Positions 1-56,309 of a stretch of 64,000 nt of DNA are shown here, piece by piece. The DNA comes from Acidithiobacillus ferridurans (lineage in GTDB: Bacteria; Pseudomonadota; Gammaproteobacteria; Acidithiobacillales; Acidithiobacillaceae). The stretch lies in contig NZ_AP018795.1 of assembly GCF_003966655.1 (NCBI RefSeq), positions 1,330,001 through 1,394,000 of the forward strand, given 5' to 3'. Made by a program: the position numbers and the translations under genes. Every line of letters begins with the position of its first letter. Within the stretch, counting starts at the first letter, position 1. The notes below the pieces were generated by a model, which was given only the letters and a program-made list of their open reading frames with translations, was not told where the DNA came from and ran no database searches.

Positions 1-1
1 G

Positions 2-1414
2 GCCCTCGGCGTCGTGGCCCTCGGCGGCTGCGCGCCGACCATCCGTGCCCCGGACCCCGCGGATGTCAAAGCACCCGCCTGGGCGAAGAGCGTGCAGCGG
101 CTGGACGGCGCCCAGGCATTGCCCACCGGCGCGTGGCCGCAACAGGACTGGTGGACGGGGCTGGCCAGCGCCGGGCTCGATCAACTCATGACCCGGGCCC
201 TGAGCCCGGCCAATCCGCGTCTGGCAGAGGCCGTCGATACGGTCCAGTGGGCGGCATCGGTCAGCACCTGGCGGGCGGCGGCCCTCGGTCCGCAGCTTTC
301 CGGACAGGCGGCCGTCACGCCTTTGCAGTTCAGCGGCAACAGCCCGCTGGGGGCGCTTGGTCTGGGCAACAAACTCTATGACAGCGGCGATGTCGGACTC
401 GGTTTTACGCAAGCGCTCGATTTCTGGGGCAAATATGCGGACCGTCTCAAGGCGGCGCTGGGTGAACAACGCGCCGCCGAAGCGCGGCTGGCGGACACTC
501 GCCGCCTGCTCACCGCCGCCGTCGTCAATGCCTATCTGCGCTGGGCGGAAGCCGAACAGCAACTCGCCAGCACCCGGCGTTTGCAGCACCTCTACCAACA
601 GCGGCTGGCGTTGTTGCGAACCCGGCGGCATCTCGGTCTCGGGACCGACCTGTCCATTGCCGATCTGTCTTTGCAGCTCCAGCAAAATACCGCCCGCCTG
701 GCCCGCTGGCAGCAACGGGCGGCTGCCGCACGCTTCGCCGTGGCAGAGCTTGCGGCGATTGCACCGGATGCCCTCCCGCTACGGCCGGTGGCGCCCGCGT
801 CCGCAGTAATCCCCACCCTGCCCCCACACCTGAGTCTGGACCTCCTTGCCCACCGTCCCGACGTACAGGCGGCACGCGCGCTGGCGCTGGCCAGCGTCCA
901 GCAGACCAAAGCCGCCCGCGCCGCTTTTTATCCAGATATTTCCTTCGCGGCCTTGCTGGACATGAACAGCGCCCACCTCGCCACGCTCCTGAACCCGGCG
1001 AGCTTTGCCTACAGCTTTGGACCGGCCTTGCGGTTACCGATTTTCACCAGCGGCGCCCTGACTGGCCGCTTCCATGGTGCCGAGGCGCAGCAGGCCAAGG
1101 CGGTGGCCGTTTACCAGGAAAGCATCCTGCAATCGGTCCAGCAGGTGCTGACGGCGCTGTCGGGATACCAGCACAGCCGACAGGTGTGGCAAGCCGAGGC
1201 GGCCGGTACCGGCGCCACCCGGGAGCAGGAAAAACTCACCGCCACTGCCCAGGGGTTGGGCCTCAGCGACCGCGCGGCGGTGCTGCAGCGGCAGATCACC
1301 CTCATCCATCAGCAAATGACCCAGCGCCTTGCCCATTATGCGGCACTACAGGCCTGGACCCAGTTGGAAACCGCATTGGGAGGCGGCTATGATCAGTCCA
1401 GACAGCACCCCTGA
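2..1414 (+). CDS. Outer-membrane efflux lipoprotein, NodT/OprM family (5' end outside window)
   Basis: This is the outer-membrane channel of a tripartite efflux pump. The frame is open to the window edge and reads ALGV-VALGGC at the start, so the visible part begins inside a lipoprotein signal with lipobox LGGC. The lipidated Cys codon is at 29-31, and the true start lies just upstream of the window. The rest (about 460 residues) has the duplicated coiled-coil layout of TolC-like proteins, with the LDLLAHRPDVQAARA segment and a later LPIFTSGAL segment typical of RND/EMR outer-membrane factors. The adaptor gene follows with a 26-base overlap, so the two are one operon. The inner-membrane pump is not in the window and may lie upstream. 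The substrate cannot be told. Confidence 0.88.
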   Translation, partial: ALGVVALGGCAPTIRAPDPADVKAPAWAKSVQRLDGAQALPTGAWPQQDWWTGLASAGLDQLMTRALSPANPRLAEAVDTVQWAASVSTWRAAALGPQLSGQAAVTPLQFSGNSPLGALGLGNKLYDSGDVGLGFTQALDFWGKYADRLKAALGEQRAAEARLADTRRLLTAAVVNAYLRWAEAEQQLASTRRLQHLYQQRLALLRTRRHLGLGTDLSIADLSLQLQQNTARLARWQQRAAAARFAVAELAAIAPDALPLRPVAPASAVIPTLPPHLSLDLLAHRPDVQAARALALASVQQTKAARAAFYPDISFAALLDMNSAHLATLLNPASFAYSFGPALRLPIFTSGALTGRFHGAEAQQAKAVAVYQESILQSVQQVLTALSGYQHSRQVWQAEAAGTGATREQEKLTATAQGLGLSDRAAVLQRQITLIHQQMTQRLAHYAALQAWTQLETALGGGYDQSRQHP

Positions 1415-2501
1415 CAACGCCGGCAAGGCCGGGGCAGACCAGAGGCGGCGCAACCTCTGGATACTCGCAGGGGTCGTCCTGCTCGGTCTGCTGGTCTACG
1501 GCCTCTGGTGGTTGCTGATCGGACAAGAGCGGCTGGAGGTAGACGATGCCTACGTCGAGGGCAACCTTTACGCGGTGGATGCGCGCACGACCGGAACCGT
1601 CGCCGCGATCCCCGCCTACGACACCATGCGCGTGGAAGCAGGCTCCACCCTGGTGATGCTCCGCGGCGAACATGCTGGTCGCAAGCTGCAACAGGCGGAA
1701 GCGCAACTGGCGCAGGCCCGGCAAAATGCGCTGGCGCTGGTCCACGAAATTCAGGCCAGTCGCAGCAAGGAAGCGGCCTTGCGGGCCAACCTGAACAGTG
1801 CGCAGCAGAAGGCCTGGCGCCTACGGGCGTCGGCCAGCGCCGGTGCGAGCGAGGATATAGCCGCCATCACGGCGGCCGACGCGGTGCGGCGCCTGCAAGC
1901 CGAAATCAGCGCCGAATCGGCGCATAGCGCAGCCCTCACCGCGCAGCTCGGGTCCGCCGGCCCGGCGGGAAACCCCGCCGTGCGTGCGGCGACGCAGGCC
2001 CTGGCCCTGGCCCACCTGAACTGGACACGACGCATCATCCGCGCCCCGGTCACCGGCATCGTCGCGCAGCAGGCGGTGCAGCCCGGACAGTGGGTGAGCG
2101 CGGGCCAGCGCCTGTTTACCGTGGTGCCATTGCAGCAGATGTGGGTCACCGCCAACATCAAGGAAACCCGCCTGGCGGGCGTGCGCCCCGGTGCGGCGGT
2201 GACACTGCATTCTGATCTTTATGGTAACGCCGTCACCTATCACGGCTGGGTGGTGGGACTGGGAGGGGGCTCCGGCGCCGTCTTCGCGGTGTTGCCGCCG
2301 GAGAACGCCAGCGGCAACTGGATCAAGTTCACCCAGCGGGTACCGGTGCGCATCGCCGTCGATCCTGGGGACCTGGCCCGGCACCCGCTGCGTCCCGGTC
2401 TGACCATGACGGCACGGATCGCACTGCATGGCCCGTGGATACGGCGGCCGGTACCGGACTGGTTCCTGCGTTCCGCAGCTGCTTCACGCCCGGCTCCCTG
2501 A
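1389..2501 (+). CDS. HlyD/EmrA-type periplasmic adaptor protein
   Basis: Membrane-fusion protein linking an inner-membrane exporter to the outer-membrane channel encoded just upstream. The ATG at 1389 is preferred because GGAGG sits 7-8 bases upstream and the product then starts with a short cytoplasmic tail followed by one membrane helix (ILAGVVLLGLLVYGLWWLLI). After it come the VDDAYVEGN segment characteristic of EmrA-like adaptors, a long Ala/Gln-rich coiled coil, and the lipoyl half-motif RAPVTGIVAQQAVQPGQWV. About 370 residues, normal for the family. The start overlaps the end of the outer-membrane gene. EmrA adaptors normally pair with an EmrB-type MFS pump; none follows here, so the partner is presumably upstream of the window or elsewhere. 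Confidence 0.87.
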   Translation: MISPDSTPDNAGKAGADQRRRNLWILAGVVLLGLLVYGLWWLLIGQERLEVDDAYVEGNLYAVDARTTGTVAAIPAYDTMRVEAGSTLVMLRGEHAGRKLQQAEAQLAQARQNALALVHEIQASRSKEAALRANLNSAQQKAWRLRASASAGASEDIAAITAADAVRRLQAEISAESAHSAALTAQLGSAGPAGNPAVRAATQALALAHLNWTRRIIRAPVTGIVAQQAVQPGQWVSAGQRLFTVVPLQQMWVTANIKETRLAGVRPGAAVTLHSDLYGNAVTYHGWVVGLGGGSGAVFAVLPPENASGNWIKFTQRVPVRIAVDPGDLARHPLRPGLTMTARIALHGPWIRRPVPDWFLRSAAASRPAP

Positions 2502-2562
2502 CTGGCCGCGCGCGCCGGCGCTGGGCTACACTCCCAGTCCCGAATTCAGGAGTGATACCGGA

Positions 2563-3465
2563 GTGGACCTGCGTCATCTGCGCCATTTTGTCGTGCTCGC
2601 CGAGGCCCTGAACTTTCATCGGGCGGCGATTCGCCTGCATCTCGCCCAGCCCTCCCTGAGCCGCAGCATCCGCGCTCTGGAAGACGAGATCGGTCTGCCG
2701 CTTTTTTTGCGTAACCAGCGGGAAGTCTCCCTCACGGCCGCCGGTCGGGTGCTCCTGCCCGAAGCCCGACAATTGCTGGCGCAGGCGCGGCGCACGGAGG
2801 CCCTGCTCGGCGATCTGCAAAACGGTCAGGCCGGCACTTTGCGGATCGGCTTTCTTGCTTCCACCGCCATCGCCCTCCTGCCTGGGCTGCTGCGCGGTTT
2901 TCGTCAGCACTTTCCGCAGGTGCACCTGGAGTTGCGGGAGATGAGCAGCGATGCGCAGTTGCAGGCGCTGCGCGATGATCAGATCGATATCGGCTTCATC
3001 CGCGATATCGGCATCCTGCCGGATATCCGCCAGCATCTGCTGCAACGGGAGGCGCTGATGCTGGTGCTCCCGGAAGATCATCCCTTTGCCGCAGAGGGCG
3101 CCATAGCGCTCCATCGTCTGCACCAGGAGTCGTTGATTCTCCTGCGCCGCGAGGTGGCGCCAGCGTCCTATGACCGCATCCTTGCCCACTGCCACATCCA
3201 TGCCCTGAAGCCACATATCCTGATGGAACTCGCCGATTCCAATGCCGTGTTCAGTGCGGTCCTGGCGGGCCTCGGACTGGGTTTCCTGTTCTCGGCCTTT
3301 GCCGAAATTCAACGTCCGGGCATCGTCTTCCGACCGCTGGCGGATGCCTTGGGGGACAGTGAGGTAAGTCTCGCCTGGCGCGGACGACAGGAGGACGGAA
3401 ATCCGGCAGCGCTGGCGTTTGTAACCATGGCGCAGCAGCAATATGCGTTGCAGGCCGAACCCTGA
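2563..3465 (+). CDS. LysR-family transcriptional regulator
   Basis: DNA-binding regulator of 300 residues, standard for LysR proteins. The N-terminal helix-turn-helix is clear (LRHLRHFVVLAEALNFHRAA, then LAQPSLSRSIRALEDEIGLPLF), followed by the periplasmic-binding-protein-like effector domain. The GTG at 2563 is chosen because it places the HTH at residues 2-60 and has AGGAG about 10 bases upstream; an open frame further upstream adds a tail unlike LysR. It lies 61 bases after the efflux adaptor on the same strand and may control the efflux genes, but LysR genes usually regulate a divergent neighbour, so the target is uncertain. Confidence 0.85.
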   Translation: MDLRHLRHFVVLAEALNFHRAAIRLHLAQPSLSRSIRALEDEIGLPLFLRNQREVSLTAAGRVLLPEARQLLAQARRTEALLGDLQNGQAGTLRIGFLASTAIALLPGLLRGFRQHFPQVHLELREMSSDAQLQALRDDQIDIGFIRDIGILPDIRQHLLQREALMLVLPEDHPFAAEGAIALHRLHQESLILLRREVAPASYDRILAHCHIHALKPHILMELADSNAVFSAVLAGLGLGFLFSAFAEIQRPGIVFRPLADALGDSEVSLAWRGRQEDGNPAALAFVTMAQQQYALQAEP

Positions 3466-3562
3466 GGCCAGCCGCATAGTCCACATCGAACCCTGATTTG
3501 CGCTACACTAGGCCAACTCCGCCCTCCGGCGGTCTGAACCCACTTTTTGGATGGAACACGGC

Positions 3563-5230
3563 ATGGCGCAATACGTTTTTTCGATGAATCACCTCAGCAA
3601 GACCGTGCCGCCCAAGCGCGCCCTGCTCAAGGACATCTCTCTGTCCTTCTTCCCCGGCGCCAAAATCGGCGTGCTCGGCATGAATGGTGCCGGCAAGTCC
3701 ACCCTGATCAAGATCATGGCGGGTATCGACAAGGAGTTCGAAGGCGAGGCGCTGCCCATGCCCGGTCTCAAGATTGGTTATCTGTCGCAGGAACCGCAGG
3801 TCGATCCGAACAAGACGGTGCGCCAGGTGGTAGAGGAGGGTCTCAGCGACATCCTCGGCGCGCAACAGGAACTGGAGGCGGTTTATGCCGCCTACGCCGA
3901 GCCCGATGCGGACTTTGACGCCCTCGCCGCCGAGCAGGCGCGCCTGGAGGCCATTGTCGCCGCCAGTGATGGGCATCAGGCCGCGCAACAGATGGAGGTC
4001 GCCGCCGACGCCCTGCGTCTCGCGCCCTGGGACGCCTTGGTCGGCCCTTTGTCCGGCGGTGAAAAGCGCCGCGTCGCCCTCTGTCGCCTGCTCATCAGCC
4101 GCCCGGACATGCTCCTCCTGGACGAGCCCACCAACCACCTGGACGCCGAATCGGTAGACTGGCTGGAGCAGTATCTACAGCGTTTCCCCGGCACCGTGGT
4201 CGCCGTCACCCATGATCGTTATTTTCTCGACAATGCCGCCGAGTGGATTCTGGAGCTGGATCGTGGTCACGGCTTCCCTTACAAGGGCAACTATTCCGCC
4301 TGGCTGGAGCAGAAAGAAAAACGCCTGGAGCAAGAGGCCAGAACCGAGGCTTCGCGCCTCAAGGCGATGCAGCACGAGCTGGAATGGGTGCGACAAAACG
4401 CCAAAGGCCGCCAGAGCAAAAGTAAGGCCCGCATGGCCCGCTTTGAAGAACTGAGCTCCTACGAATACCAGACCCGCAATGAAACCCAGGAGATTTTCAT
4501 TCCGGTGGCGGAACGCCTCGGCAACGAAGTGATTGAATTCCGTGACGTGACCAAGGGCTTTGGCGACAAATTGCTTTTTGAGCATCTCAGCTTTCAGGTG
4601 CCGCCGGGTGCCATCGTCGGTGTCATCGGCCCCAACGGTGCCGGTAAATCGACTTTTTTCCGCATGATCGTGGGCCAGGAAAGCCCGGATAGCGGGGCAG
4701 TCGTCCTGGGCTCCACGGTCAAACTCGCCTATGTGGATCAGTCCCGCGATGCGCTTGCCGCCAAAAACAACGTCTGGGAAGAAATCTCCGGTGGGTTGGA
4801 CATCCTCACCGTCGGCAAGTTTGAAATCCAATCCCGTGCTTATTGCGGCCGCTTCAACTTCAAGGGTGCCGACCAACAAAAGCTGGTGGGACAATTGTCG
4901 GGCGGTGAGCGCGGCCGCCTGCATCTGGCCAAGACCCTCATCGCCGGCGGCAACGTCCTCCTCCTCGATGAACCTTCCAACGACCTCGACGTGGAAACCC
5001 TGCGCGCGCTGGAAGATGCCCTGCTGGAGTTCGCCGGCAGTATTATGGTCATCTCCCATGACCGCTGGTTCCTCGACCGCATCGCCACTCACATCATCGC
5101 TTTCGAAGGCGATGCCCATGTCGAGTTTTTTGCGGGCAACTACCACGAGTATGAGGCCGACAAAAAGCGTCGCCTGGGTGAAGAGGGTGCCCGGCCCCAC
5201 CGCCTGCGTTACAAGCCAATCGTGCGCTGA
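3563..5230 (+). CDS. ettA: Energy-dependent translational throttle protein EttA (ABC-F)
   Basis: Cytoplasmic ABC-F ATPase that binds the ribosomal E site and gates the first elongation steps according to ATP/ADP ratio. Two ABC domains are visible, each with Walker A (GMNGAGKST; GPNGAGKST), LSGGE signature (GPLSGGEKRR; GQLSGGERGR) and Walker B with LLLDEP, joined by a charged linker. Start 3563 gives MAQYVFSMNHLSKTVPPKR, matching the start of E. coli EttA, and a 555-residue product, the usual EttA length. No transmembrane segments are present, so it is not a transporter. It is a stand-alone gene upstream of rpmH. Confidence 0.93.
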   Translation: MAQYVFSMNHLSKTVPPKRALLKDISLSFFPGAKIGVLGMNGAGKSTLIKIMAGIDKEFEGEALPMPGLKIGYLSQEPQVDPNKTVRQVVEEGLSDILGAQQELEAVYAAYAEPDADFDALAAEQARLEAIVAASDGHQAAQQMEVAADALRLAPWDALVGPLSGGEKRRVALCRLLISRPDMLLLDEPTNHLDAESVDWLEQYLQRFPGTVVAVTHDRYFLDNAAEWILELDRGHGFPYKGNYSAWLEQKEKRLEQEARTEASRLKAMQHELEWVRQNAKGRQSKSKARMARFEELSSYEYQTRNETQEIFIPVAERLGNEVIEFRDVTKGFGDKLLFEHLSFQVPPGAIVGVIGPNGAGKSTFFRMIVGQESPDSGAVVLGSTVKLAYVDQSRDALAAKNNVWEEISGGLDILTVGKFEIQSRAYCGRFNFKGADQQKLVGQLSGGERGRLHLAKTLIAGGNVLLLDEPSNDLDVETLRALEDALLEFAGSIMVISHDRWFLDRIATHIIAFEGDAHVEFFAGNYHEYEADKKRRLGEEGARPHRLRYKPIVR

Positions 5231-5300
5231 GGCGCCTTGACTTTCACGCAGCATCTCCTTATCTTCTCAGCCCTTAAGAATTACCCGCAGGAAGTGTCTC

Positions 5301-5435
5301 ATGAAGCGTACTTTTCAGCCCAGCGTCGTTCACCGTAAGCGGACCCACGGGTTCCGTGCCCGCATGGCCACCAAATCCGGCCGCCTCGTGCTCAAGCGCC
5401 GTCGTGCCAAGGGCCGTCAGCGTCTTTGTCCGTAA
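5301..5435 (+). CDS. rpmH: 50S ribosomal protein L34
   Basis: Small basic ribosomal protein of 44 residues: [20 protein letters not shown] at the start and [13 protein letters not shown] at the end. It contains the family pattern KRTxQPS...KRxHGFRxRMxTxxGRxVLxxRRxKGRxRL throughout. The gene sits four bases upstream of rnpA, the near-universal rpmH-rnpA order, and the two are expected to be co-transcribed. The most C-terminal residues (LCP) differ slightly from the usual L(S/T)(A/V) ending. Confidence 0.97.
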
Positions 5436-5439
5436 GCCG

Positions 5440-5790
5440 ATGAACCCGGCGCTGGCGCATCCTCATCGTTTTACCCGCGAGGATCGTCTCCGCCAGAAGG
5501 TGGCTATCCAGCGTACCCTCAAGCAGGGGCGCAAGAAGGTTTTTCCGGAATTGGTGATTTACGCCCTGGGTAACGAGCTGCCACATCCAAGACTGGGCCT
5601 GGCGGTGAGTCGCAAGGTGGGCAATGCCGTGGTCCGCAACCGCATCAAGCGGCGCCTGCGCGAAGCCTTCCGGCAGCAGCCGGCGCGCACACGGGGGCGC
5701 GACGTGCTGGTCGTGGCGCGGGCGGGTGCGCGGCAACTCGGCATGCGCGCCATGGCTGCCTACCTTCAGCAAATCCTGGAGAGGACATGA
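5440..5790 (+). CDS. rnpA: Ribonuclease P protein component
   Basis: Protein subunit of RNase P, which assists the catalytic RNA in removing 5' leaders from pre-tRNAs. The diagnostic RNR motif is present in [15 protein letters not shown]. The start at 5440 gives 116 residues, normal length; a longer open frame would overlap rpmH entirely and is not used. It lies between rpmH and yidD, and its last four bases (ATGA) overlap the yidD start, suggesting translational coupling. Confidence 0.95.
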
Positions 5791-6002
5791 GTCCGCGGCG
5801 CGCGGCAGTGGTCGTGGTGCGCGGCTACCAGTACGTCATCAGCCCCATGCTCGGACACAACTGCCGCTTTTTTCCGACCTGCTCCGAATATACCTGTCAG
5901 GCCATCGAACGCTACGGCATCGCCAAAGGTTCCTGGCTAGGCATAAAACGCATCAGCCGCTGCCATCCCTGGCACCCCGGTGGTGTTGATCCCGTTCCTT
6001 AA
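5787..6002 (+). CDS. yidD: Membrane protein insertion efficiency factor YidD
   Basis: Small amphipathic membrane-associated protein of 71 residues that aids YidC-dependent insertion. The family motifs are visible: [24 protein letters not shown] and the C-terminal [14 protein letters not shown]. Start is an ATGA overlap with rnpA, and yidC follows after 16 bases. Gene order rpmH-rnpA-yidD-yidC-mnmE is the conserved gammaproteobacterial arrangement. Confidence 0.95.
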
Positions 6003-6018
6003 AACGCCCTGGGGCCCC

Positions 6019-7605
6019 ATGGATAATCAGAAGACCATCCTCGCCGTTGCACTTGCCGTAGTCGTCTTCCTGCTGTTTCAGGCCTGGCAGGAGCAGAATA
6101 CGCCGAAACCTGCGGCCGGGCCCGCTGTCAGCCGGAGTGTAACGGCGCCCGGCGCCTCGGCCACCTCGCCGACGCCAGTGGATGTGGTTCCTGCTAGCGC
6201 CAGCGGTCTCCCACCGGCGACCGGGGCCGCGGTATCTTTCCAGACGCAAGTGCTCACCGGTCGGATCAGTCTGAACGGCGGAGACATTCAGAACCTGGGC
6301 CTGCGCCACTATCCACGGGCGGTGGACAATCCCGCCCCTTATCCTCTCCTCGACGGGGCAGCGGCCAGGCTCACCATACAACAAAGCGGCTTCGTCAGCA
6401 GCGCCGGGCAAACCCTGACCGCCCGGTTTGCCGCTCCCGCCGGTCAGACGACCGCAGGCCAGCCCATCGTCCTCACTGGCAAGGCCGGCCCCCTGACCGT
6501 ACAAAAAACCTGGACATTCCAGCCCGACAGCTATGTGGCAGAAGAACACATCACCATCACCAATAGCGGGTCCGCGCCCTGGAACGGCAGCTATTTCGAT
6601 CAGATCCTGCGTAACGACCGCACCGAAACGCACATGTTCATGTCGATTTTCACCGGCGCAGTGCTCATGCACCAGGGCAACTTCAGCGAGGTGAGTTTCA
6701 GCGACATCCACGATCATCCGGTACTGAAATCCGGCCCCGGATGGGCGGGGATGATGGACCATTACTTTCTCACCGCCATCCTGCCCTCTGCTCATGCGCA
6801 AGTTCAGGTTTATGCGCGTCCTTCGGGTACCAATTATGTGGCCGGAGTGAGCACCCCGCTACCTACCCTGGCGCCGGGACAGAGCACCACCGTCACCCAA
6901 CAGCTCTTCCTCGGGCCGAAGCGGCAACAAACGCTGGCCGCCATGGGGCGCGGCCTGGAACAGACCGTGGACTACGGCTGGTTCGCCATCATCGCCGAGC
7001 CCATGCATGTAGTCCTGACCTGGTTCCACGGGCTGGTCGGCAACTGGGGACTGGCAATCATCCTGCTCGTCATAGTGGTCAAGTCCATCTTCTTCTACCC
7101 CTCGGCCATCAGCTACCGTTCCATGGCCAACATGCGGAAGCTCCAGCCCAAGCTGGAGAAACTGAAGCAGGAAGTCGGCGACGATCGCCAGAAGCTGGGC
7201 GTAGCCATGATGGAGTTGTATCGCAGCGAGAAGGTCAACCCCATGGCAGGTTGTCTGCCGATCATACTGCAGATGCCTTTCTTTATCGCCCTGTACTGGG
7301 TACTGGTGGAGAGCGTCTCCCTGCGGCAGGCACCCTTCATCCTCTGGATTCATGATCTGGCCATACCCGACCCTTATTTCATCCTGCCCCTGCTCATGGG
7401 CGTGTCCATGTTCTTCCAGCAGCGCCTCAATCCCGCGCCGGTAGACCCCATGCAGAAGCGCATCATGTCCGCGCTGCCGGTGGTCTTCGCCGTGTTCTTC
7501 TCCTTCTTCCCCGCAGGCCTGGTGCTCTACTGGCTGACCAACAACGTGGTTTCCATCGGCCAGCAGTATCTGATCACCCGCCACATCATGGCGGCCAAGG
7601 ACTAG
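6019..7605 (+). CDS. yidC: Membrane protein insertase YidC
   Basis: Inner-membrane insertase that folds and integrates membrane proteins alone or with SecYEG. Start 6019 gives MDNQKTILAVALAVVVFLLF, the usual MDxQRxxL start with the first membrane anchor. A large periplasmic domain covers roughly residues 30-330, followed by the conserved five-helix insertase core beginning at WFHGLVGNWGLAIILLVIVVK and ending with YWLTNNVVSIGQQYLI. At 528 residues it is within the Gram-negative range. Lies directly after yidD and 37 bases before mnmE. Confidence 0.95.
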   Translation: MDNQKTILAVALAVVVFLLFQAWQEQNTPKPAAGPAVSRSVTAPGASATSPTPVDVVPASASGLPPATGAAVSFQTQVLTGRISLNGGDIQNLGLRHYPRAVDNPAPYPLLDGAAARLTIQQSGFVSSAGQTLTARFAAPAGQTTAGQPIVLTGKAGPLTVQKTWTFQPDSYVAEEHITITNSGSAPWNGSYFDQILRNDRTETHMFMSIFTGAVLMHQGNFSEVSFSDIHDHPVLKSGPGWAGMMDHYFLTAILPSAHAQVQVYARPSGTNYVAGVSTPLPTLAPGQSTTVTQQLFLGPKRQQTLAAMGRGLEQTVDYGWFAIIAEPMHVVLTWFHGLVGNWGLAIILLVIVVKSIFFYPSAISYRSMANMRKLQPKLEKLKQEVGDDRQKLGVAMMELYRSEKVNPMAGCLPIILQMPFFIALYWVLVESVSLRQAPFILWIHDLAIPDPYFILPLLMGVSMFFQQRLNPAPVDPMQKRIMSALPVVFAVFFSFFPAGLVLYWLTNNVVSIGQQYLITRHIMAAKD

Positions 7606-7642
7606 GGTGTGGGTGAGGATTTGTCCGTGCTGAGTTAAGGGC

Positions 7643-8998
7643 ATGGATTATCAGCAGGGAGACACGATTGTCGCGATTGCCACTCCGCCGGGAGAAGGCG
7701 GTGTCGGCATTTTGCGCTGCTCCGGACCACAGGCGCTGTCCATCGCGATGGAGCTCTGCGGCGGACCGACAGTCAAACCGCTGACGCCCCGCCATGCTCA
7801 TTTTCGCCGCTTTTACGCCCGCGACGGCAGCCTGATCGATCACGGCATTGCCCTCTATTTTCCAGCCCCTAACAGCTACACCGGCGAAACCGTCGTGGAA
7901 TTGCAGGGCCATGGCAGCCCGCTGGCCCTCGCCAGCCTGCTCACCGAGGCTATCGCTCTTGGCGCACGGGCGGCGCGTGCCGGGGAGTTCAGTGAACGGG
8001 CCTTTCTCAACGGTCGGCTTGATCTTGCCCAGGCCGAAGCGGTGGCCGACCTCATCCACGCCCGCAGCGATGCTCAGGCACGAGCCGCGGCAGCGAGCCT
8101 GGAGGGCGCCTTTTCACAAGCCGTCGATGATATTCACGGCCAGCTTCTGCGCCTCCTCGCCCTCGCTGAAGCCGGACTGGATTTCAGTGAAGAAGACCTT
8201 GGCGATGCCCATGACCAGGCGATCGGCGACAGTCTGGTACGGCTGGATGCTCAGGTCGCCCATCTGCTCAAGCAGGCGCAGCAAGGCGCCCGACTCGCCC
8301 GCGGCGGTCGCGTGGTGCTCGCCGGGCGTCCCAACGTCGGCAAGTCCAGCCTGATGAACGCCCTCGCCCAGCGCGAGTCGGCGATTGTCACCGCCATCCC
8401 CGGCACCACCCGCGACCTGCTTCGGGAAGAGATCGTCCTCGGCGGACTACCGGTGGAACTCGTCGACACCGCGGGACTGCGCGAGGCGGCGGATGCCGTG
8501 GAGGCGGAGGGCGTCGCCCGCGCCCGCAACATATTACACAGTGCACAACTAATCCTGCTGGTGGTCGATGCGAGCACGGGATGGCAAACAGAGGACGAAG
8601 TTATCCTGCGTGCCCTGCCGGACGGACCGCGCCGCATCATCTGGAACAAAATGGATCTGGTTTCCGCAGTACCTGCCACCCCGACGGGTGAGGAAGCGAT
8701 AACACTCTCCGCCCAAACCGGCGCAGGTCTCGATGCGTTACACCGCAGCCTGATCGAAGCACTGGGTGTGCAGGGCGATAGTTGCCCCTTCAGCGCCCGC
8801 CGCCGCCATGTCGAAGCCCTGGAAAGCTGTTTGCGCCGGCTCGGCACCGCACGTGACATGCACCGCCTGGGAGATGCCCCGGAACTGGTCGCCCAGTCCC
8901 TGCGTGAAGCCGCGGCAGCGCTGGCCGGCATCACCGGCCACATGGATGTGGAAGACATTCTCGGCGAGATTTTTTCGCGCTTTTGCATCGGTAAATAA
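7643..8998 (+). CDS. mnmE: tRNA-5-carboxymethylaminomethyl-2-thiouridine GTPase MnmE
   Basis: GTPase that with MnmG adds the carboxymethylaminomethyl group to wobble U34 of certain tRNAs. The N-terminal folate-binding domain contains NSYTGE. The G domain, from about residue 220, has G1 GRPNVGKSS, G2 PGTTRD, G3 DTAGLRE and G4 NKMD. The C-terminal signature is complete at FCIGK, carrying the catalytic Cys. 451 residues, family-typical. Last gene of the housekeeping block and convergent with the porin gene. Confidence 0.96.
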   Translation: MDYQQGDTIVAIATPPGEGGVGILRCSGPQALSIAMELCGGPTVKPLTPRHAHFRRFYARDGSLIDHGIALYFPAPNSYTGETVVELQGHGSPLALASLLTEAIALGARAARAGEFSERAFLNGRLDLAQAEAVADLIHARSDAQARAAAASLEGAFSQAVDDIHGQLLRLLALAEAGLDFSEEDLGDAHDQAIGDSLVRLDAQVAHLLKQAQQGARLARGGRVVLAGRPNVGKSSLMNALAQRESAIVTAIPGTTRDLLREEIVLGGLPVELVDTAGLREAADAVEAEGVARARNILHSAQLILLVVDASTGWQTEDEVILRALPDGPRRIIWNKMDLVSAVPATPTGEEAITLSAQTGAGLDALHRSLIEALGVQGDSCPFSARRRHVEALESCLRRLGTARDMHRLGDAPELVAQSLREAAAALAGITGHMDVEDILGEIFSRFCIGK

Positions 8999-51863: not shown

Positions 51864-52427
51864 TTACTTGACAATGATTTTACCAAACATACCGGTGGCG
51901 GCATGCCCCGGTATCTGACATACGTAGTAGTAAGTACCCGCCGTCGGATGCCAGGTGAAATCCGTATATCCGAACTTGCCGTCTTTTGGGACCGGGCTAA
52001 ATCCAGTTCCTGCGACAATGGGGTCAATCACCGGCATAACCGCATAAGGCGGTCCTTTTTTAGTGATGTCAAAACTATGACCAAATCCCTTGTTGGTGTT
52101 AATGAAGGTCACGTCTACGGTTGCCCCTGCGGGAATCTCCAAGGTCGGGTTCTTTTTGTCATGAACTTCAAAGCTCGGGAACGGAAATCCCGGGAGCACG
52201 GCCGCCGCGACCACATGTACAGTCTTGCCGCTGTAGGTAACTGTATCGCCACTGACTTTCCCGGTATCTTTCTCCAGCATGGCCTTAACTTGGGGAAGCG
52301 TCGCCTCTTTCCATGTGGAATCCAGCGTGCCGGCCATCGCGGTACCCATGCCGACCGTTGCCGCCAGAGCCGCAGCCGCACCAACAGTCACATACCAGTT
52401 CTTTTTCATCGTGTTCTGTGTATACAT
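51864..52427 (-). CDS. rus: Rusticyanin
   Basis: Type I blue-copper protein carrying electrons from Cyc2 to Cyc1 and bc1 in the acidic periplasm. 187-residue precursor with a 32-residue signal peptide (ending TAMA), mature part GTLDSTWKEATLPQVKA. Copper ligands, in mature numbering, are His85 (GFGHSFD), Cys138 and His143 (YVCQIPGH) and Met148 (TGMFG). Matches the published A. ferrooxidans sequence closely as far as I recall it. Last gene of the operon. Confidence 0.97.
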   Translation of the reverse strand: MYTQNTMKKNWYVTVGAAAALAATVGMGTAMAGTLDSTWKEATLPQVKAMLEKDTGKVSGDTVTYSGKTVHVVAAAVLPGFPFPSFEVHDKKNPTLEIPAGATVDVTFINTNKGFGHSFDITKKGPPYAVMPVIDPIVAGTGFSPVPKDGKFGYTDFTWHPTAGTYYYVCQIPGHAATGMFGKIIVK

Positions 52428-52556: not shown

Positions 52557-52697
52557 TCAAAACAGCACTCTAAGGGTAACATAATAGCCACCCAGAGCAA
52601 TAATAGCCCACAATAATCCTATGATCAACACGATGTTTCCATCCCATGCGCCATCATCGCGATCATCGTGAGAAATTAAACAGCCTTCCTTGTTCAT
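52557..52697 (-). CDS. 46-residue membrane protein in rus operon
   Basis: Minus-strand ATG at 52697 with AAAGGAGGT 6 bases upstream opens a 46-codon frame ending at TGA 52557-52559. It encodes a charged N-terminus (MNKEGCLISHDDRDDGAWDG) and one membrane helix (NIVLIIGLLWAIIALGGYYVTL). It lies between coxD and rus on the same strand, separated by 99 and 129 bases. Likely a small oxidase-associated subunit or assembly factor (inference). Too short for most gene callers. Confidence 0.72.
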   Translation of the reverse strand: MNKEGCLISHDDRDDGAWDGNIVLIIGLLWAIIALGGYYVTLRVLF

Positions 52698-52796
52698 GAT
52701 TTACCTCCTTTGAAGCATGGATAACGACGTCGCAACAGTAAAACGCAAAACAACTCCGGATGGCCGCCCGGTACTCGCACGACCATCCGTGGAACA

Positions 52797-52991
52797 TCAT
52801 GCGTTTCCAGATGCGCCGTCTTCTCCCTTTTTTAGAATACGCAGCCGATCTTCCTTGCTTGCCTCCTTTAATACCCACCAAAAGTATGCACTCAGAAACA
52901 CCACAGGAAACCCAATGTACCCCGTCAGCCAGAAAAACGTCGGATCATCAGCTCCAGACGGGATAACGAACGATAAATGTGACATATCCAT
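52797..52991 (-). CDS. coxD: Cytochrome c oxidase subunit IV (CoxD)
   Basis: 64 residues with one or two hydrophobic stretches (PTFFWLTGYIGFPVVFLSAYFWWVL) and a basic C-terminal tail. Position after coxC matches coxD of the reported coxBACD order. Minor subunit of the aa3 oxidase. Confidence 0.85.
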   Translation of the reverse strand: MDMSHLSFVIPSGADDPTFFWLTGYIGFPVVFLSAYFWWVLKEASKEDRLRILKKGEDGASGNA

Positions 52992-53031: not shown

Positions 53032-53586
53032 TTACGCAATATAGAAAACAATAAAAAATGCAACCCATAGAACAATCACACCGCCCCAGAAGGTTAACAC
53101 GTTATACGACACCCATCGCTCGCGTTTCGCGCGCTCTGGAGTGCGAGTGATTTTCATGATACTCGCCAGCAGCGCCAGGATGGCCGCCACGAAATGTACC
53201 AGAAACCACAAGCTGGTGATGTCATAAATCCCGCCATAACCACTACCGATGGTTAAGGTAGTCCAGTTGTAGACGATTCCACCCGCCATCACCAACGAGA
53301 CCACCATCAGGGTTGCCAGACTGCTCACGATACCGGCATCATCGCCCTGATCCAGTTTTTTGCGGGCCGTCATCACCGGCACCAGGCTGACGAGCATCAG
53401 AACAGTCAGCGCAACACCCACGCCCATGCTCAATGTAGCGGGCACCGCAGTGCCCCCCCACAGAAAACGCGCGAGGTCCCACATCGCAAAAATGATGGCT
53501 GCAAAAAGCATCAGGAAAAAGAACGCACCCCTTTTTGCACGCTCCGAGGCCGGATCCATTAGCTTGGCATAACTGTTGTCTGTCAT
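53032..53586 (-). CDS. coxC: Cytochrome c oxidase subunit III (CoxC)
   Basis: 184 residues with five hydrophobic helices (FFFLMLFAAIIFAMWDL, LSMGVGVALTVLMLVSLV, LATLMVVSLVMAGGIVYNW, LWFLVHFVAAILALLASI, VLTFWGGVIVLWVAFFIVFYIA), the reduced form of subunit III. AAGGAG precedes the ATG. Downstream of coxA by 18 bases. Assists proton uptake and stability of subunit I. Confidence 0.88.
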   Translation of the reverse strand: MTDNSYAKLMDPASERAKRGAFFFLMLFAAIIFAMWDLARFLWGGTAVPATLSMGVGVALTVLMLVSLVPVMTARKKLDQGDDAGIVSSLATLMVVSLVMAGGIVYNWTTLTIGSGYGGIYDITSLWFLVHFVAAILALLASIMKITRTPERAKRERWVSYNVLTFWGGVIVLWVAFFIVFYIA

Positions 53587-53604
53587 GGTTCAACTCCTTC
53601 TAAT

Positions 53605-55488
53605 TTACTTGCTGGGCGTAGACACCCAAATAAAGGGGTCTTTTGCTTCCGCCGCGTAGTTATCGTTCGGGCCCACAACCTCTGGCTCCGTTCCTGCTGG
53701 ATATGGCACATACGGTGTTGGCGATTTTATTTGCCATTCCAGGCCGTTGCTGCCCCAAGGGTTAGCTTCGGCCTTTGGCCCATAGCGCCAACTGTATAAA
53801 AGATTGGCCAGCGGAATGAGAAACCCTGCGCCCAAGAAAAAGGATGAAATAGACATAAACAGGTTGATGTCATGCAGGTAAGGAAGATATATCGCAATTC
53901 TCCTGTTCATTCCATCGAGTCCAGCTATAAACATGGGAAAGAACGTACAATTGAAGAATACGAAAAACCACCATGCGTGAAACTTTCCCCAAAATTCATT
54001 GATCTTCCGTCCAGTAACCTTGGGAAACCACCAGTATAGCGCGGCAATCCAGGTAAAGATCACTCCACCAAGCATCGTATAATGGAAATGCGCAATAACC
54101 CAGTAGGTGTTGTGCAGCTGAAGGTCGGCGGGAACGTCGGCATTGAATATGCCCGTCAGCCCACCGATCAGGAAGTTCATCATCGCCATCAATACGAGCA
54201 ATACCGCAGCATTAATTCTTAAACGACCACCCCATATCGTTCCGATGGCGGACAAATAAATGAACCCTGTCGGAATGGATACAGTTTCCGTTATGGTCAT
54301 GAATATGGGCATACGCGCGTCACTCACCGCAGTGAAGTAGTGATGGACACCCAACATTGCACCCAACATGGAAACGCCAACCAGTCCGGCGATGGCCCAA
54401 CCCCTAGCAAACAACGGCCGCTTGGCCGCGGCAGGAAGAATCTCCAGCCATATGGCAAAAGCGGGCAGAATGAAAACGTAGACCTCTGGATGGAACAAAA
54501 ACCAGAACTGATCGAGATACGCTAACGGGTGGCCGGTGGGACCGGTATAAAAATGCGATCCGGCGATCATGTCGGATAAGTCCATGAGCGCGCCGGTATA
54601 GGTTGCTGGCGACTCTACGACGAGAATGGTGGCTGCCGCAAATAAACCCCACACAAAAATCGGAACGCGACCCAAGCTCATGCCCTTGGCGCGCATGTAC
54701 ACCATGGTTCCGGCGATATTGATGGCTCCAAGTAGCGACGCAACAAGAATGGTGGCGGCACCGAGGACATACCACACAATACCGCTACCACTGTTTTGCG
54801 CCAACGGCGGATATCCCCACCATCCCGTCTGAAACCCACCAATCGTAGGACTCATAAAAACAGCGAAGGTCGCCGGTGGCAAAAGCCACCAACTCAGGCC
54901 AAGAAGTTTTGGGAATACTACATTTCTCGTGCCAAGCATCAACGGGATAAGATAGTAGCCAACACCGCCGACGATGGCAGAGGCCACCACACCCAACAAC
55001 ATCATCAATCCATGAATACCGAACGTTTGGTTGTACTGGATTTCTGACAGCCACCAACTGGTGGAGTCTGGCGTCAACAGTTCAATGCGGATCGCCATGG
55101 CGGCCATGCCGGCAAAGAAGAACGTTAGTATATTTAAGATTACGTAGCGTACGGCTGTGGATTTTGAATCGGGACCAAAGCGAAAATAACGTTCGATACC
55201 CGTGTAAGTTGGAGCTTCTTTTCCTCCAAATGCGCGTCGTATCCATCCCTCCCATACACCGCTGCCCATCAGCCAGCAGACCAAGCCGGCCACATAACCC
55301 ACTGTCGCGGGTAAAGGGTTTACGATTACCGTGTGGAGCAATAAAGCAGTGATCCATGCCGCAGCAAAATAGCCGGTTAGTCCCCAAAGCGTCGCACGGA
55401 ACAGCGGAAACAGCATGCTAGCCGCAAATGGGGTCTTGTCCACTCCCGTATTGTTCAACGCATTTTCCTGAATTTCGTTAGTTGCCAT
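53605..55488 (-). CDS. coxA: Cytochrome c oxidase subunit I (CoxA, aa3 type)
   Basis: 627-residue catalytic subunit bearing haem a and the haem a3-CuB site. Helix VI motif FHPEVYVFILPAF (HPEVY with the crosslinked Tyr), CuB His pair HHYFTA, haem ligands in VIAHFHYTMLGG, and FGIHGLMMLLGV with low-spin haem His. Terminal oxidase for Fe(II) respiration. AAGGAG precedes the ATG. Confidence 0.95.
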   Translation of the reverse strand: MATNEIQENALNNTGVDKTPFAASMLFPLFRATLWGLTGYFAAAWITALLLHTVIVNPLPATVGYVAGLVCWLMGSGVWEGWIRRAFGGKEAPTYTGIERYFRFGPDSKSTAVRYVILNILTFFFAGMAAMAIRIELLTPDSTSWWLSEIQYNQTFGIHGLMMLLGVVASAIVGGVGYYLIPLMLGTRNVVFPKLLGLSWWLLPPATFAVFMSPTIGGFQTGWWGYPPLAQNSGSGIVWYVLGAATILVASLLGAINIAGTMVYMRAKGMSLGRVPIFVWGLFAAATILVVESPATYTGALMDLSDMIAGSHFYTGPTGHPLAYLDQFWFLFHPEVYVFILPAFAIWLEILPAAAKRPLFARGWAIAGLVGVSMLGAMLGVHHYFTAVSDARMPIFMTITETVSIPTGFIYLSAIGTIWGGRLRINAAVLLVLMAMMNFLIGGLTGIFNADVPADLQLHNTYWVIAHFHYTMLGGVIFTWIAALYWWFPKVTGRKINEFWGKFHAWWFFVFFNCTFFPMFIAGLDGMNRRIAIYLPYLHDINLFMSISSFFLGAGFLIPLANLLYSWRYGPKAEANPWGSNGLEWQIKSPTPYVPYPAGTEPEVVGPNDNYAAEAKDPFIWVSTPSK

Positions 55489-55544
55489 TACTTACTCCTT
55501 AGTACATTTAACGTTGGGTGCTGGCAAGCCTTCCGTTGGCTTTA

Positions 55545-56309
55545 CTAGAAGCTATTGTTTGCCACCCAAGCCTTGAAGTCCGCTGGCGTTACCACTTTCA
55601 CCGGAGCGCGCATCAACGGATGTCCGTTGCCACAAATCAAGGAACACTGTACACGCAGCATGGGGTTTGTAGCGGTTGTCCCCAACATGGTGGGTGTAAT
55701 AAACAAGTGCCGCACTTCATTGGGGATCACATCTTTTTTCTCACCCCAGGCAGGCACCCAAAAATCGTGCATGACATCCTTTGTCCGCAGAACGAAGTCT
55801 ATGGTGCGGCCCTCGGGAACCACCAGTTGTGACACATCCGTTACGCCCTGCTTAGGATAAGAGAACGTCCACTTCCACTGTTGCGCGGTAACATCGATCA
55901 CCAATGGGTTCTTCGTATCTAACTGGATACCCCAAAGTTGTTCCAGACCCACCATACCCGGATAAATGGTATTTGCCAGGTTGATGCCTATGGCCAAAAC
56001 CAGCCAGGTCACCACGAAAGGCGCCCAGGTCCGTTTTTGATAAGCCGGCGCCGCGGTGTCTGACATGGACGATGCGCGGAAACGAAATGCGCTATATACA
56101 ATCGCACCGCCGACCAGCACATAGATGACTACGGCCTGCCACAACAGGTATGTGGTGGCATCTGCGGTAATATGCGCCTGAATACTCCCCAAAATTGGCC
56201 AGTTACCGATACCCCAGGCCATCAGCGTTTCGAAAATCGCCAGGCCAATAATCCAGACCACCACCAAGCCGCGGAAAGCTTTCCATAAGTTTTCTTTTGC
56301 TGCGTTCAT
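55545..56309 (-). CDS. coxB: Cytochrome c oxidase subunit II (CoxB)
   Basis: 254 residues: two N-terminal helices, then a periplasmic cupredoxin domain with the binuclear CuA site. Ligands visible are His181 (VMHDFWVP), Cys222, Cys226 and His230 (CSLICGNGH), and Met233. The usual Glu of CSExCG is Leu224, so the canonical backbone/Mg-site residue is missing. GGAGGGCAT precedes the ATG. Electrons likely come from Cyc1 with help of AcoP. Confidence 0.92.
   Translation of the reverse strand: MNAAKENLWKAFRGLVVVWIIGLAIFETLMAWGIGNWPILGSIQAHITADATTYLLWQAVVIYVLVGGAIVYSAFRFRASSMSDTAAPAYQKRTWAPFVVTWLVLAIGINLANTIYPGMVGLEQLWGIQLDTKNPLVIDVTAQQWKWTFSYPKQGVTDVSQLVVPEGRTIDFVLRTKDVMHDFWVPAWGEKKDVIPNEVRHLFITPTMLGTTATNPMLRVQCSLICGNGHPLMRAPVKVVTPADFKAWVANNSF

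Follow-up and report, generated by a model that had tools for sequence, protein, structure and literature searches.

Small single-helix subunits are an established feature of the heme-copper oxidases, with subunit IIa of the ba3 enzyme, CcoQ of the cbb3 enzyme and subunit IV of the alphaproteobacterial aa3 enzyme as examples. In cytochrome bd, small subunits of the CydX type are encoded by tiny genes in oxidase operons, and annotation easily misses them. The rus operon, which encodes an aa3 oxidase and rusticyanin, is the textbook system for Fe(II) respiration at acid pH.

Within the window (the whole stretch of 64,000 nucleotides of Acidithiobacillus ferridurans DNA that was analysed), this operon contains a further frame of 46 amino acids, which we call orf46; the encoded protein is MNKEGCLISHDDRDDGAWDGNIVLIIGLLWAIIALGGYYVTLRVLF. 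As a sequence-only reading of the window had stated, the frame lies between coxD and rus and has a ribosome-binding site; it is on the minus strand, and the site, AAAGGAGGT, was found 5 nt before its ATG (Table 1). Purine-rich stretches also lie 5' of the ATGs of the orf46 homologues. The gene occupies the eighth position, before rus; it is a real gene of this iron-oxidation operon. Downstream of rus follow ctaA, ctaB and then a transporter gene. In CoxA (53605-55488, minus strand), about 110 residues precede the COX1 domain, which begins at residue 112, and this N-terminal part apparently contains extra hydrophobic stretches.

Table 1. Features of the orf46 region, in positions of the window.
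Feature	Position	Strand	Basis or remark
orf46, 46-codon gene, predicted single-pass membrane protein	52557..52697	-	ATG to TGA; homologues
Shine-Dalgarno site AAAGGAGGT	52703..52711	-	5 nt 5' of orf46 ATG
Predicted membrane helix, codons 20-45, signature GxxVL(x5)WxxIxLGxxY	52563..52640	-	alignment, AlphaFold2
Promoter-like TTGATC-17-TATTAT, inside helix codons; possible internal rus promoter	52600..52628	-	
rus (rusticyanin)	51864..52427	-	next queried gene downstream in each mapped orf46 operon
coxD	52797..52991	-	upstream neighbour of orf46 in Acidithiobacillus
coxC, coxA, coxB of the rus-operon aa3 oxidase	53032..56309	-	

How does this gene compare with the described small subunits? It resembles IIa, CcoQ and subunit IV in its length, its one helix, its short charged ends and its being encoded with oxidase genes; unlike them, it gave no profile match to any oxidase family of Pfam or NCBIfam (17 of 17 family members), and its oxidase already has CoxB, CoxC and CoxD. 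Like CydX, it is a tiny gene in an oxidase operon and easy to miss, but the oxidase is of another class and there is no Pfam match. The likeness to the CoxD of the rus operon (small, one hydrophobic stretch, no match in Pfam or NCBIfam) is offset by the fact that orf46 is a separate gene beside coxD in the same operons, and BLASTP of orf46 against CoxD (E 0.10, 5 of 24 helix residues identical) gave no sign of kinship.

Searches with the 17 members at E values up to 10 returned only two unrelated weak families from Pfam (best E 0.077; the HMMER filters discard most weak Pfam matches) and nothing from NCBIfam. None of the matches was to a small oxidase subunit family of Pfam (CcoQ, CcoS, CydX, aa3 subunit IV). 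Searches of the PDB by sequence and by profile produced nothing credible, the 20 profile matches (plectin, filamin, spectrin and the like, E of at least 0.36) being taken as chance. With the CoxIIa model (PF08113), none of five host genomes exceeded the cut-off and two weak matches (E about 1) appeared elsewhere; in the control, this model matched 10 of 14 genomes and exceeded the cut-off in one. A known small oxidase subunit was thus rejected, given the lack of a credible Pfam, NCBIfam or PDB match and the negative CoxIIa result. Its product probably belongs to an ordinary kind of protein, the small accessory membrane proteins, of which it is a new named member.

In the accessible portions of the published accounts, AFE3146-53 constitute an eight-gene operon without orf46, the same eight genes are listed for strain YNTRS-40, again without it (PMC7023503), and the operon arrangements of three genera omit it in both text and legend (PMC10654088). 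The partial, open-licence literature consulted (including PMC2621215, PMC5506826, PMC10327505 and PMC5216662) contained no description of orf46 or its region. The suggestion that the gene had been overlooked therefore holds for the operon lists consulted; it holds less well for a 2021 paper, of which the accessible legend to Fig. 1C shows an unspecified "short hypothetical protein" in such clusters, with no sequence, family or role (PMC8239418). The COX clusters concerned are from iron-oxidising Proteobacteria, and their short unnamed gene may be orf46.

A full orf46 frame was present in 7 of the 17 genomes of the genus (named members include A. ferruginosus CF3, A. ferrivorans DSM 22755, A. 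ferriphilus DSM 100412, A. ferrianus MG and one MAG). Seven of the 17 have rus, and seven have a rus-type coxA (at least 87% identity), the other ten carrying only paralogues of 32-34%. These three sets are the identical seven genomes. Five other genomes of the genus gave only weak matches (E > 0.5), in frames of 307-456 aa, and G004 gave one further weak match (E 0.99). Disruption of the frame in close relatives was looked for, and orf46 proved intact in all seven genus genomes that have the operon. A. ferrianus MG has two rus operons on two contigs (L062, L064), with no difference in the 9661 bases compared. In A. ferriphilus DSM 100412, rus-type coxA is present twice (L061 and L065, 90% and 87% identical to that of the window), and both contigs stop just 3' of coxA.

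Counting each genome once, we found orf46 in 19 genomes: seven of the genus, one of its family, eight Acidiferrobacter-like and three Acidihalobacter-like, the latter two names being inferred from the operon order published in PMC10654088. Homologous frames occur around distant coxA relatives at six of seven loci (L067-L072, with L066 the exception). In a profile search, the family of L067 (Acidiferrobacter-like) yielded the gene in 8 of 18 genomes and the family of G695 in 3 of 5. A rus-type coxA of at least 89% identity is present in 7 of those 18, all with orf46; in the eighth genome with orf46 (G440), the contig opens just before coxD. The search of the order (31 genomes, E ≤ 1) yielded one clear genome outside the genus (G421, E 7e-6, which by contig and coordinates is the genome of L071) and weak matches in G416 (E 0.07) and G425 (E 0.62). 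The protein profile matched 3 of 369 in the class sample at E ≤ 0.001 (the window, G641 and G695; the contig number and coordinates of the G641 match equal those of G431). In the phylum sample, 1 of 398 passed at a coxA E ≤ 1e-130, namely the window itself, with no other relative, and a plasmid search found nothing. The family looks narrow, as judged from thin samples and a profile applied to bacteria of this phylum only.

Gene order was mapped at 22 loci. In seventeen of these, including two from A. ferrianus (L062, L064), orf46 is present; it invariably lies 5' of rus on the same strand, with no other queried gene in between. The gene 5' of orf46 is coxD in Acidithiobacillus and in L071, and ctaB in the other groups; the order ctaB-orf46-rus is seen in the Acidihalobacter-like loci L103 and L104 too. 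Because the upstream neighbour varies between coxD and ctaB, orf46 is not a spill-over of coxD. The five loci without orf46 are L066 and four stand-alone rus loci (L054, L055, L057 and L058, with about 1.5 kb upstream covered); L056, the fifth of the extra rus copies, is a fragment at the beginning of its contig and was left out of the mapping. The gene accompanies the oxidase and rus together, and not rus alone. As to the loci themselves, L066 (positions 1-8060, from MAG DS4.bin94) is a second coxBACD cluster, with no match to rus, ctaB or orf46 in the next 5 kb, and an unnamed conserved gene lies 3' of ctaG in Acidiferrobacter-like operons (L072, 12165-13019; also L067-L070, L096 and L097).

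Conservation in other rus operons, complete among the seven of the genus, is interrupted in one Acidihalobacter-like copy: in G795 (L104, about 8438-8550), it is disrupted close to a G run, where mutation and sequencing are alike possible. In the Acidihalobacter-like loci, cyc1 gave no match, and neither did the ctaA query in the gap of about 1.4 kb at the published position of ctaA. According to the accessible part of one report, T. prosperus lacks cyc1 and has a separate transcript for rus (PMC2754497). If such separate transcription holds in the Acidihalobacter-like loci, orf46 would end the oxidase transcript there.

The encoded proteins are 44-48 residues long. For orf46, AlphaFold2 predicted a single helix (residues 20-45) and a disordered head, residues 1-10 having a pLDDT below 50; with 11 input sequences and a mean pLDDT of 71, the helix alone is trustworthy. 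The best 19-residue Kyte-Doolittle mean is 2.37. These two results agree with the one membrane helix claimed earlier, and orf46 thus has, by prediction, the membrane helix of a heme-copper oxidase accessory subunit. The head, described as acidic and rich in His and Asp, is indeed acidic (six D/E vs. two K/R) but not His-rich; it has a single His, which is not conserved. Across the 17 members, G20, V23, L24, W30, I33, L35, G36 and Y39 are invariant and G37 and Y38 nearly so; the conserved helix reads GxxVL...WxxIxLGGYY..R. Sequence conservation is confined to the helix; the head is kept in charge, not in sequence. An acidic head and a tail of +1 are found in 16 of the 17, an arrangement that, under the positive-inside rule, would place the N-terminus outside, the C-terminus inside and the head in the periplasm. 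A permutation analysis for a conserved helix face found none that was significant (p 0.30). No Cys, His or Met besides Met1 is invariant in the 17 members, and orf46 lacks the conserved metal-binding residues of a copper or heme assembly factor.

Substitutions were counted separately in helix and head. Between the window and L008, the helix codons have 14.3 changes at 21.0 synonymous sites and 8.7 at 60.0 nonsynonymous sites (Fisher p 2e-5, rounded counts). The head evolves faster than the helix: between the window and L005, it has 11.0 changes at 47.8 nonsynonymous sites and 1.0 at 9.2 synonymous sites (dN > dS). The substitution pattern indicates that orf46 is under purifying selection.

Could so short a frame have arisen by chance? 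We generated 20000 first-order Markov sequences modelled on, and as long as, the 369-nt gap between coxD and rus. An ATG frame of at least 46 aa arose in 29% of them, such a frame with a GGAGG/AGGAG site in 1.2%, and a frame with both this site and a membrane-like stretch in 0.1%. Length alone thus says little and would not exclude chance; the site, the helix and the conservation together are not due to chance. A chance frame was ruled out by conservation, co-occurrence and substitution pattern, and because of these three we regard orf46 as real. Judged from sequence comparison, it is a real and conserved gene, and a function for it is probable.

What might this function be? We consider it moderately likely that orf46 encodes an accessory (supernumerary) single-pass inner-membrane subunit of the rus-operon aa3 cytochrome oxidase. 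The gene co-occurs and clusters with the oxidase genes, as is usual for accessory subunits of heme-copper oxidases. The earlier suggestion, an extra oxidase subunit or an assembly factor, fits the data best because co-occurrence with the oxidase is strict and the stand-alone rus copies examined lack the gene; membership of the enzyme itself is what we infer. In such a subunit, the helix would use its invariant W, LG and Y residues to pack on the membrane core of CoxA, CoxB, CoxC and CoxD and might stabilise the core or its cofactors. The acidic head would then face the periplasm, from which electrons arrive by way of rusticyanin and Cyc1, and the Arg/Lys end would be cytoplasmic. Several observations speak against an oxidase subunit: orf46 follows the position of rus more closely than that of coxD, the rus-less, rus-type coxBACD cluster L066 is without it, the frame is broken in G795, the head evolves fast, no helix face is significantly conserved, and no known oxidase subunit in Pfam, NCBIfam or the PDB gave a credible match.

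Some of the same observations would fit a partner on the rusticyanin side instead of a structural oxidase subunit: a docking peptide or membrane tether that uses its acidic periplasmic head to keep rusticyanin or Cyc1 close to CoxB. orf46 adjoins rus in every mapped operon that contains it, even where ctaB instead of coxD lies upstream, it is missing from the rus-less cluster L066, and 16 of 17 members preserve the charge of the head but not its sequence. We nevertheless judge a docking role unlikely, as all four mapped stand-alone rus loci are without orf46 (the fifth, partial copy being outside the mapping) and sequence conservation resides in the helix and not in the head.

A protein that acts in assembly only, for example in the insertion of heme A or copper, and is absent from the finished enzyme would account for the position of orf46 directly 3' of ctaB, the heme O synthase gene, in two groups. 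The members, however, have no conserved His, Cys or Met beyond Met1 with which to handle copper or heme, and the Acidithiobacillus gene stands apart from the cta genes, with rus in between; such a factor seems, if anything, a little less likely than a docking peptide.

The DNA of orf46 is itself highly conserved at synonymous positions. In five Acidithiobacillus operons, identical codons are used at 12 of 22 invariant amino acids in orf46 vs. 317 of 1332 across seven neighbouring genes (p 0.002); for seven Acidiferrobacter-like operons, the counts are 10 of 19 vs. 167 of 1015 in six genes (p 0.0004). Genes missing from any locus had been dropped beforehand, and an eighth Acidiferrobacter-like operon (L090) was left out as too short. 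Among 46-codon windows of the neighbour genes, 2 of 1519 (Acidithiobacillus) and 17 of 1667 (Acidiferrobacter-like) reached the orf46 value, and among 11-codon windows, 48 of 1727 and 5 of 1748; these windows overlap and are not independent, and ctaB is doubled in the Acidiferrobacter-like background. In the four more distant Acidithiobacillus loci, the identity of orf46 DNA to the window is 0.86 (L060), 0.82 (L050), 0.68 (L063) and 0.67 (L062), and both flanks have 0.28-0.55; in the close relative L059, it is 0.97 vs. 0.91-0.93 for the flanks. The dS to L060 is 0.19 for orf46 vs. 0.98-1.21 for coxA, coxC, coxD and rus. Because the flanks have diverged, this low value is not explained by a long tract having been transferred recently.

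Folding of the mRNA was strong relative to shuffles in the window (52557-52697, minus strand; z -3.56) and in L060 (8885-9025; z -3.73), and no better than shuffles in L063, L067 and L072; the gap between orf46 and rus folds in an ordinary manner (z +1.1), and the region has no Rfam match. A conserved RNA structure was rejected on this distribution of folding strength. A 1998 study of rusticyanin reportedly mapped transcripts near rus. The accessible part of one report assigns two promoters, PI and PII, to the rus operon (PMC5506826). The Acidithiobacillus sequences compared (7 of 7) all retain the pair TTGATC-17-TATTAT, which in the window is 172 nt upstream of the rus ATG. The corresponding codons read TTGCTT-17-(G/C)ACAAT in the Acidiferrobacter-like sequences (8 of 8), a weaker match (7 of 12) that encodes different amino acids; L071 and L101 lack the pair, and in L095 a similar one lies a codon later. 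A promoter scan alone was not significant (2 sites vs. 1.3 +/- 1.2 expected), and the promoter reading of the helix codons is post hoc, having been made after the data were seen. Because of the synonymous invariance in two clades and the retention of the pair in 7 of 7 sequences, orf46 may also contain a rus promoter.

That the stretch owes its conservation mainly to a role as DNA or RNA, as a promoter or an mRNA structure for rus with an incidental peptide, is very improbable: the synonymous conservation in two clades, the low dS to L060, the folding in two members and the promoter-like pair in Acidithiobacillus would suit it, but the protein is conserved across groups with differing DNA, substitutions favour synonymous sites, L063, L067 and L072 fold no better than shuffles, Rfam has no match, and the pair is missing in L071 and L101 and lies one codon away in L095. 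A double use, in which orf46 would be a subunit linking the oxidase to rusticyanin and also hold, in its helix codons, a promoter giving the large excess of rusticyanin over the rest of the operon, is a tentative idea to which we give somewhat more weight than to a docking peptide, and which we still think doubtful.

An accessory subunit of the aa3 oxidase remains our preferred reading of orf46. A ninth conserved gene in the operon would imply that models of the iron-oxidising chain, like its purified and heterologously reconstructed forms, may miss one component.
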